A DNA stretch of 40,584 nt from an uncultured Treponema sp. (GTDB lineage Bacteria > Spirochaetota > Spirochaetia > Treponematales > Treponemataceae): the NCBI GenBank assembly GCA_945868875.1, contig CAMBMW010000003.1, forward strand, positions 1 to 40,584, written 5' to 3'. The stretch's first letter is position 1. Each line of letters opens with the position of its first letter. A model generated the notes under the pieces. That model made no database searches, was not told where the DNA came from, and worked only from the letters and a program-made list of their open reading frames with translations. Shown here piece after piece: positions 20,042 through 26,453 of the stretch. Made by a program: the position numbers and the translations under genes.

Positions 20042-20174
20042 TTTTCGCGTAAAGCGAAGACTTAATTAAATGAGTCTCTTTGGAACTCTGATTTGAATCA
20101 AATGATGTTATTTATGCCATTTGATTTAAATATTCGTTAAATGCGGATTGTTTGTTATTTGTTTTTTATTCGCT

Positions 20175-20204
20175 TTGTGCGATAAAAATAAGAAAAGGTA
20201 TGAT
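20175..20204 (+). promoter_or_regulatory. Candidate promoter for the structured leader
   Basis: TTGTGC (20175-20180), 18-bp spacer, TATGAT (20199-20204). Confidence 0.4.
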
Positions 20205-20210
20205 AATAAT

Positions 20211-20343
20211 CGCTAGAATAGCGCGGTTTTGTCTGCCAAAAGTTTGCGTTGCAAACTTAATTATAAGTTTCTGTTCTTTATTTCATTAAGGAACAGCTAA
20301 AAAAAGTCATTCGATTGATGAAATAGTCTTCCTGACTTTTTTT
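20211..20343 (+). promoter_or_regulatory. Candidate structured leader RNA (or short ncRNA) ending in a terminator hairpin
   Basis: CGCTA-gaa-TAGCG (20211-20223); AAGTTTGC-gtt-GCAAACTT (20240-20258); CTGTTCTTT..AAGGAACAG (20271-20296); AAAAAAAGTCA..TGACTTTTTTT (20299-20343). Confidence 0.6.
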
Positions 20344-20360
20344 ATATAAGGAGATTTTTT

Positions 20361-21110
20361 ATGAAAAAAAGCATTTTTATTCTTTCTGTTGCAACAGTTT
20401 TGTTGTTTACAAGTTGTGGAACTACAAAAACAGTAAAAGGTTCTGGAATTAAAGGAAATTCCGCAAAAGTACAAAAAAATTCTGTAACAATTTTAGATTA
20501 TCAGGGTGCATCTTTTGGTTCTGAAATCCCTCAATGGGTTGTTGAAGTAGGCAACGGAAATTATTCTGCAGAAGCACTTTCACCAATTCTTCCTGGAATT
20601 TCAGGTAAAAAACCATTTGTTGTTGTAGCTCGTGGAGATAACCTTGAATATACACGTCAATGGGCAGACTTAGTTGATGTAGAAAATCAAGTTGGTGATG
20701 AAATGCAGCGTATTGTTGGAAAAGCTGTTTCAGCTGCACAAAAAGGACGTGCAAAACAGGTTGGAGATACAAAAGATGCAACTGTTTTGGAACAGGAATT
20801 GAATATGTATAAACAGGCAGTTTCTGCTGTAGAATTAAACGGTTTGGAAAAAATTGCTTCATACTGGATTCAAAAAGAAGTTAAACCTTCAAAAAATTCA
20901 AAAGAATCAAAAGTTTATTATGAATATTATGCAGTTTGGGGTATGAATAAAAAACTTTATGACATTCAGATTCAGTCTGCTTTGGACGGAGTTGAAGACA
21001 ACACTGATGAAGGAAAAGCTTTGAAAGAAACACTTTCACTTAAACTTCAGAATATGATGATTACTTCAAATGACGAAACTATTACAGAAGAAGCTGACGA
21101 AGAAATCTAA
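20361..21110 (+). CDS. Hypothetical lipoprotein
   Basis: Lipobox LLFTSCG; aaggag SD; same strand as the LpoB/LPP20-like genes. Confidence 0.75.
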   Translation: MKKSIFILSVATVLLFTSCGTTKTVKGSGIKGNSAKVQKNSVTILDYQGASFGSEIPQWVVEVGNGNYSAEALSPILPGISGKKPFVVVARGDNLEYTRQWADLVDVENQVGDEMQRIVGKAVSAAQKGRAKQVGDTKDATVLEQELNMYKQAVSAVELNGLEKIASYWIQKEVKPSKNSKESKVYYEYYAVWGMNKKLYDIQIQSALDGVEDNTDEGKALKETLSLKLQNMMITSNDETITEEADEEI

Positions 21111-24779: not shown

Positions 24780-26453
24780 TCAACCTTTGCTGTTTTTAAG
24801 AAGTGCATTATCATCGCCGCTTAAATAATCATCACAAAGCTTTTGTGGCATTGGTTTTCCGCGTAAAAATCCCTGCACTATATTGCACTTGAAATGCGTG
24901 AGTAAATCAAGCTGTTCAGGATATTCAACACCTTCTGCAATAGTTTCAAGTCCCATTTTTCCCACCATTTTAATGATTGAACTTGTGATGTTTGCTTGCA
25001 CACCATCAGCGGAAGTAATGTCATTGATAAAAGATTTGTCGATTTTAAGAGTGTTTAAAGGAAGCGATTGCAGATAACTTAATGAAGAATAGCCAGTACC
25101 AAAATCATCAAGGGAAACACGAATCCCCCTTTCTCTTATTGCTTTGAGTTTTTCTACAGTTTCTTCCATTTTGTGAATGAAAACACCTTCTGTTATTTCA
25201 ATTTCTAGAAGTGTAGGGTCAATTTTTTCGTTTTTAACTATTTCGTCAAGCTCTTCAATAAAATTGTCCTGCAAGAGTTGAATCGGAGAAATGTTTACTG
25301 ACATCACACCATCAAAATGATATTTTTCCTGCCATGTTTTTAAAGTTTTGACAGCTGTGCGCAAAATCCATCTGCCGATTGGTATGATAAGACCAGTTTC
25401 TTCTGCAATTGGAATAAAAATTGAAGGAGGAATATTGCCAAGTTCTGCATCTGTCCAGCGGATTAATGCTTCAAATCCACGTAATTTTCCTGTGTTGATA
25501 TCAAATTGAGGCTGATAATACTGACTGAACGAATTCTCTAAAAGTGCAGTTGTCATTTTTGACTGGAGTGTTAATTTTTGAATAAAAAGCCGCTGCATAT
25601 CTGGTTCAAAATATGTAAAATTGTTTTTACCGTTTTTCTTTGCATATTGCAATGCCATATCAGCAAAGCGGATAAGTTCTTCTGAAAGTTCAGAATTTGA
25701 CGGGAAAAACGAGATTCCAGCAGAAACACTTATTTGTTTTATCTGGAAAGATTCATATATGCAGTCTATAAAGTTTGCCAAACTGTCTTCTGTATCAAAA
25801 TTGTTGATGATTAAAGCAAACTCGTCATCTCCGTATCGGAAAATCTGAACTCCATGGTTTTCGAACTGTTTTAAAACTTCGCTTACACCAAGAATCAATG
25901 CATCACCTTCGTTGTAGCCGCGAGAATCGTTTATACTTTGAAGATTATCTATGTCCAGAATTAAAAGAGCGGCATGTTCTTTGTTGTAACGGGCAGTTTC
26001 AAGAGCGATATTAAATGACTCATTAAAGCCAGTCCTGTTTAAAAATCCAGTTTGAATATCAGTGATGGCAGAAGATTTCAGTTTTTGATAATACTGTCGT
26101 TCAGATGTTATATCTGTAAAAAACACGATTACATTTTTTTTGTCTGCAAGATATTTCATGTCAATTTTGTACCACTTTTTTGTTGATGGTGAAAAATATT
26201 TAGCTTCGGGATATTCTCTGTCTGCTATGGCATCAAGAGCCATTTTGAACCACGGTACATCAGAAGTAATTTCATTTTCAAAATCTGACCATTTCCGGCA
26301 GTCTTTAATTATATATCCAACAGCTTTTTTAACTTCTTCATTTACGTATGAAATCTCAAAATCAATAACTTTGCTTGAATCATCTTTTTCAGGTGTTGCA
26401 ACAATAACAGGGGAAGGAATGTTGTCAAGAATTATTTTAAAATCTATATCCAT
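24780..26453 (-). CDS. PAS-GGDEF-EAL protein (c-di-GMP metabolism)
   Basis: FRYGDDEFALII (GGDEF variant), FEALIRW (EAL motif), DDFGTGYSSLSYL, ETIAEGVE, VQGFLRGKPM. Confidence 0.92.
   Translation of the reverse strand: MDIDFKIILDNIPSPVIVATPEKDDSSKVIDFEISYVNEEVKKAVGYIIKDCRKWSDFENEITSDVPWFKMALDAIADREYPEAKYFSPSTKKWYKIDMKYLADKKNVIVFFTDITSERQYYQKLKSSAITDIQTGFLNRTGFNESFNIALETARYNKEHAALLILDIDNLQSINDSRGYNEGDALILGVSEVLKQFENHGVQIFRYGDDEFALIINNFDTEDSLANFIDCIYESFQIKQISVSAGISFFPSNSELSEELIRFADMALQYAKKNGKNNFTYFEPDMQRLFIQKLTLQSKMTTALLENSFSQYYQPQFDINTGKLRGFEALIRWTDAELGNIPPSIFIPIAEETGLIIPIGRWILRTAVKTLKTWQEKYHFDGVMSVNISPIQLLQDNFIEELDEIVKNEKIDPTLLEIEITEGVFIHKMEETVEKLKAIRERGIRVSLDDFGTGYSSLSYLQSLPLNTLKIDKSFINDITSADGVQANITSSIIKMVGKMGLETIAEGVEYPEQLDLLTHFKCNIVQGFLRGKPMPQKLCDDYLSGDDNALLKNSKG

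Follow-up and report, generated by a model that had tools for sequence, protein, structure and literature searches.

A four-hairpin leader of a Treponema lipoprotein gene is probably a mobile TD-1 element placed at a ribosome-binding site

A 40,584-nt stretch of DNA from an uncultured Treponema sp. (contig CAMBMW010000003.1; here called the window) carries four consecutive hairpins, HP1 to HP4, directly upstream of a lipoprotein-like gene. From the letters of this one locus they had been predicted to form a conditional-termination leader. What, then, is this structure, and why does it lie at this place?

The hairpin leader and its TD-1 relatives

The four hairpins are present where the original prediction located them, and HP4 indeed ends 17 nt before the ATG (20361). 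The fold of positions 20200-20360 had a predicted energy of -39.8 kcal/mol (z = -3.68), and 0 of 200 dinucleotide shuffles were as stable. HP1 exists at 20211-20223, and in the predicted fold it lies within a longer hairpin spanning about 20202-20233. In the following list of features, the hairpins of the element are called A, B, E and F:

20199..20353, plus strand: whole element, apparently a diverged TD-1 copy of the GGAG subtype, with hairpins A-B-E-F plus a 3' GGAG
20195..20198, plus strand: AAGG on the left flank; GGAG stands here in other copies
20202..20233, plus strand: hairpin A, predicted fold; contains HP1 (20211-20223)
20240..20258, plus strand: hairpin B (HP2), predicted fold and covariation
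20271..20296, plus strand: hairpin E (HP3), predicted fold and covariation
20298..20344, plus strand: hairpin F (HP4), terminator-like, with an A-rich/T-rich stem, -11.5 kcal/mol alone
20350..20353, plus strand: 3'-terminal GGAG of the element, 7 nt before the lipoprotein ATG
20361..21110, plus strand: lipoprotein-like gene without a Pfam family; the insert is missing at its orthologues in G006 and L013
26467..26567, minus strand: second copy in the window, 5'-truncated (B-E-F), preceding a GGDEF-EAL gene (24780-26453, minus strand)

The GGAG at 20350..20353 appears to act as the Shine-Dalgarno sequence of the lipoprotein gene, and the left-flanking AAGG is presumed to be what is left of a target motif. 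The element is separated from the upstream gene by roughly 155 bp (20042-20197), which contain small hairpins, are missing in close relatives and gave zero matches elsewhere in the same genome.

The four-hairpin leader is not unique but one copy of a dispersed repeat, which is matched at about 38 other places in this genome: positions 20044-20400, used as a query, returned 39 matches including the query itself, most of them covering about 20198-20341. This genome is a draft of 2.18 Mb in 204 contigs, and contig breaks are frequent at these repeats. The aligned copies have in common hairpin A (GTAAGATAAAACCGC...GCGGCTTTATCTTAC), hairpin B (AAGTTTGCGTTGCAAACTT), hairpin E (GCTGTTCC...GGAACAGC) and hairpin F (AAAAAGTCAATCGATTGTTGAAACAATCTTCTTGACTTTTT), followed by RGGAG and usually by a start codon. 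Their forms vary: tandem and partial copies occur, and others contain an unrelated repeat of about 80 bp, called C-D, between B and E.

At the gathering threshold there was no Rfam match anywhere in the window. At relaxed thresholds, copies from several species matched RF03155 (TD-1, filed as Cis-reg) with 47-64 bits. The window copy, with 37.5 bits, stays under the gathering score (64.5), but its positions 20227-20348 span the whole model, 1-120 of 120, at E = 9.4e-5 within 351 nt. Other copies of its own genome scored up to 61.9 bits, and copies in related genomes reach or exceed the gathering score, one in G006 with 66 bits. The window copy could also be aligned with 33 others, drawn from about 16 genomes and several of them near the gathering score; the element is homologous to TD-1 RNA. 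RF03155 is present in 22 of 59 genomes of the genus and, across the family, in 29 of 60 genomes, which represent 12 of the 20 genera sampled, reaching about 49 copies per genome (44 in G049, 20 in G042 and 14 in G044). TD-1, which shares clan CL00124 with TD-2 (RF03162), has the same hairpins B, E and F and the same Shine-Dalgarno end; its model starts within the 3' half of hairpin A. New with respect to the Rfam entry are the full 5' hairpin A, the empty sites, the GGAA subtype and the target specificity described below. TD-1 was reportedly described in a 2017 NAR paper. The text of Weinberg 2010 does not mention it, and TD-1 RNA did not appear by name in the literature searched.

In alignment A1, which holds 34 copies of the GGAG type (the window copy included) from about 16 genomes, stems B, E and F show strong covariation. 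Their 31 pairs were formed in 95.7% of cells; two-sided changes at 21 pairs amounted to 155 cells versus 45 in shuffles, and the covariation score was 0.41 versus 0.14 when shuffled and at most 0.105 when slid. The scoring covers B, E and F, the arms of hairpin A being out of register in the aligner output; when folded singly, every one of the 34 copies formed hairpin A, with long, nearly perfect stems in copies other than that of the window. A purely RNA-level structure is expected to contain more wobble pairs than we found (17 G-T and 10 A-C versus 976 Watson-Crick cells). Their rarity fits upkeep of the stems at the DNA level, although it is not decisive.

The switch in the original prediction depended on a 7-nt complement between the HP3 and HP4 loops. 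This complement exists in the window copy and can even be extended to 8 nt, but it is not conserved: the median longest complement among the 34 copies is 3 nt, and at least 7 nt occur in 1 of 34, namely the window copy, which makes chance its most likely origin. What holds of the predicted attenuator is thus a structured element upstream of a ribosome-binding site, homologous to TD-1 and with covarying stems; the loop-loop switch does not hold.

Filled and empty sites

Failure to conserve the hairpins at the orthologous gene had been named as a result that would refute the predicted leader. In the closest relatives the whole element is missing there: the orthologous lipoprotein gene has no insert in the nearest relative, G006 (L009; 97% protein identity), or in L013 (90% protein identity), and the gap between the upstream gene and the lipoprotein gene is about 20 nt in both, versus 319 nt in the window. 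In T. berlinense, a B-like hairpin (AAATTTGCTCTGCAAATTT) lies ahead of the Shine-Dalgarno sequence of the lipoprotein gene.

For the junctions, the 5' ends of 25 downstream genes were sought in related genomes, and 20 upstream regions were aligned with G006. Clean filled/empty pairs were obtained at four genes, dapA (L055), L062, L046 and L052, and at all four the repeat starts right behind a GGAG-like motif and ends in its own GGAG, which then takes the place of the gene's Shine-Dalgarno sequence. The empty dapA site is TTATAAGGAG|GAATTATG; when filled, it is TTATTAAGGAG[TGTAAG...TTTTTATAGGAG]GAATTATG. Since L062 and L046 have GAAG or AAGG on the left flank but GGAG at the right end, the right GGAG is most likely borne by the element; where GGAG stands on both sides, an element-borne GGAG is indistinguishable from a 4-bp target duplication.

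G042 contains 11 copies of one 221-bp variant with 98-100% identity, which we read as a recent burst. A search with this variant for a longer, autonomous version with the same ends gave only full short copies and fragments. In the same genome, a copy of the GGAA type (L163) lies inside the coding sequence of an ABC-transporter ATPase, as identified from the translated flanks.

Two subtypes and their link to start codons

The copies fall into two subtypes of the same architecture, one ending in GGAG and one in GGAA, which were read from about 60 copies of five further genomes, a non-random sample of the best-scoring copies. A start codon with an open frame follows 5-13 nt on in 35 of the 38 GGAG-ended copies, and the three exceptions look like tandem copies, whereas only 6 of the 27 GGAA-ended copies are so placed (random positions: 11%); the difference is significant (Fisher p ~6e-9), and the counts take target preference and selection together. 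Likewise, all 20 copies in G112, which belongs to a different genus, have GGAG or a close variant at both ends and lie before a start codon, with essential housekeeping genes downstream. The proteins encoded downstream of 83 copies are almost all unrelated and form no regulon; the recurrences between genomes were a KDPG-aldolase-like pair, a DapA-like pair and one weaker local match. Target choice, combined with selection against insertions within genes, therefore explains where the copies lie and how they are oriented. The element's own Shine-Dalgarno sequence would keep the hit gene translatable.

The GGAG-bounded arrangement is found in a second, unrelated family of the same genome group, a three-hairpin element (GTGATAAAAATTACRTCC...CGCTAACGCG...GGAG) with no Rfam match above threshold. 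All 12 copies analysed are bounded by GGAG-like motifs; seven lie immediately ahead of a start codon that opens a frame of 60 codons or more, three continue straight into a TD-1 copy, and two are followed by an ATG with no 60-codon frame in the stretch, probably since the stretch ends there. Members of the family are L268-L274, L277 and L280-L282, and about 28 fuller copies occur in G006. The family nests with TD-1, sometimes in tandem, and its similarity to TD-2, like that of neighbouring sequence, is weak (E ~0.3-0.6).

Proposed insertion at Shine-Dalgarno sequences and its alternatives

We propose, with a probability of roughly 0.75, that the window carries here a diverged copy of a dispersed TD-1 element, mobile but non-autonomous, that targets and regenerates the Shine-Dalgarno sequence. 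This proposal builds on what was observed directly, that is, dispersal, empty sites, GGAG at both ends, a start-codon linkage that depends on the subtype, and covarying stems. The mobilising enzyme would recognise the folded strand and cut behind a tetranucleotide. The GGAG subtype would insert in a single orientation, immediately 3' of a GGAG-like target. Outside coding regions, most targets of this kind are expected to be Shine-Dalgarno sequences, and selection would remove most insertions into coding sequences. Because the element would bring its own GGAG at the 3' end, a few nucleotides past hairpin F, the hit gene would keep a Shine-Dalgarno sequence at normal spacing and should remain translatable. 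A Shine-Dalgarno target together with a replacement GGAG explains why copies precede unrelated genes and lie in the same sense as these. If hairpin F affects transcription, this would be a by-product of insertion and not the cause of its position; insertion at GGAG is the simpler account of the upstream place, from which a role as a gene switch need not follow.

Several features recall REP sequences and the IS200-IS605 elements mobilised by Y1 transposases: hairpins with an adjacent conserved tetranucleotide, asymmetric ends and insertion behind a short target motif (PMC6006769, PMC3733652). In contrast to these elements, TD-1 has four hairpins instead of one or two, and GGAG instead of GTAG (PMC6006769, PMC3733652). 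A further difference from REP and IS200-IS605 is that the genomes with most copies, G049, G042 and G044 (44, 20 and 14 copies), had no Y1 transposase. Y1 transposases are present in the genome of the window, which has three RAYT-like Y1 genes of about 250 aa (L079, L080 and L081), and TD-1 ends were not found around its Y1 genes. For the Y2 (IS91) transposase there was one marginal match across eight genomes, and a DEDD IS110 transposase was likewise lacking in G049, G042 and G044. Y1/RAYT, Y2 (IS91) and IS110 were dropped as mobilisers, being absent or marginal in copy-rich genomes.

The pneumococcal repeats BOX, RUP and SPRITE are also structured, dispersed, mostly shorter than 200 bp and transcribable within leaders; BOX is modular and SPRITE is terminator-like (excerpt of PMC3049150). 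TD-1 resembles them as a structured dispersed repeat that may become part of leaders. It differs from BOX and RUP, which possess terminal inverted repeats and duplicate their targets, and in that excerpt none of the three is described as entering or regenerating a Shine-Dalgarno sequence (PMC3049150).

Some occupied sites are shared between relatives. Of the 21 genes with a TD-1 copy here (genome G000), 7 have a GGAG element at the same Shine-Dalgarno sequence in G006. At L047, L048 and L074 (at L074 a fragment) the G006 element is TD-1; at L059, L068, L064 and, less clearly, L063 it is a member of the second family, so that TD-1 here is paired with the second family there (L059/L238, L068/L250, L064/L251 and L063/L240). 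Compared with a rough 3-5% of occupied genes, a baseline that was estimated and not counted, 7 of 21 corresponds to P values of 2e-6 to 5e-5. This excess could reflect ancestral insertions with turnover, a limited number of sites that tolerate an insert, or a benefit for expression, and a regulatory role would be compatible with it. Other points that fit the mobile-element proposal less well are the lack of a candidate enzyme among Y1, Y2 and IS110 in copy-rich genomes, the degraded AAGG left flank of the window copy, and the 155 bp upstream of it (20042-20197) that relatives also lack.

The alternative that fares best, although we give it about one chance in four, is an ancient mobile element that was partly co-opted, some leaders being kept for an effect on mRNA stability or expression. 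Shared occupied sites with a change of element type at the same Shine-Dalgarno sequence (L059, L068, L064 and L063) agree with co-option; a limited set of permissive sites gives the same pattern, however, and the fraction of occupied genes is an estimate, not a count. Somewhat less probable still is a genuine cis-regulatory RNA that spread as a regulatory module, in which F terminates unless A, B and E sense a signal. The Rfam label of TD-1, the position directly upstream of the ribosome-binding site, the strong covariation of the stems, the terminator-like hairpin F and the excess of shared occupied sites (G000/G006) all agree with such an RNA. It is opposed by the missing element at the orthologous gene in relatives, by the lack of a common function among the genes downstream of 83 copies and in G112, where they are essential housekeeping genes, by the GGAA subtype, which has the same four hairpins but no start-codon linkage, and by the loop-loop switch that is not conserved. 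Chance pairing or an independent ncRNA of about 130 nt, both originally listed as alternatives, are very improbable: the region is AT-rich and promoter-like sites are no more frequent than in shuffles, so that nothing marks a separate transcript, but homologous copies across the genome and family, strong covariation and the constant Shine-Dalgarno coupling of the GGAG subtype refute chance.

We lean slightly towards the broader view that Treponema and its relatives host a class of small multi-hairpin mobile elements, comprising TD-1 and the second family, which use the Shine-Dalgarno sequence as target, carry a replacement at their 3' end and are moved by an unrecognised enzyme, the cis-regulatory annotation of TD-1 reflecting target choice. 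If so, a curated family of "cis-regulatory RNA" would be better described as a mobile element aimed at the ribosome-binding site, and a genome parasite could settle in front of essential genes and leave them active, since it would itself provide the site that it displaces. It would also caution against taking an upstream position and covariation as proof of regulation.

We rejected hairpins C-D as part of a longer TD-1 version, as they are a separate repeat inserted in some copies. This repeat of about 75-80 bp has two hairpins (TTCAGGGGTTAATACAACCCCTGAAAACGAGCGAGTCAAGGC...GCCTTGACCGGTCGTATT) and occurs in many Treponema genomes at varied positions (L087, L088, L095, L098 and L102-L109; within L061, L072, L082 and L083). 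L161, L167-L176 and L178 represent a TD-1 variant whose hairpin B has about 65 nt inserted in its loop; at L161 this insert includes an ATG and a GGAG that resembles a Shine-Dalgarno sequence, which may be the remnant of a small open frame. Finally, positions 10-584 of the window consist of a 192-nt repeat in three direct copies containing AGGTCTGTCCCTGCACGTGCC, and its motif CAGGGACAGACCT is also present elsewhere in the same genome and in G006.
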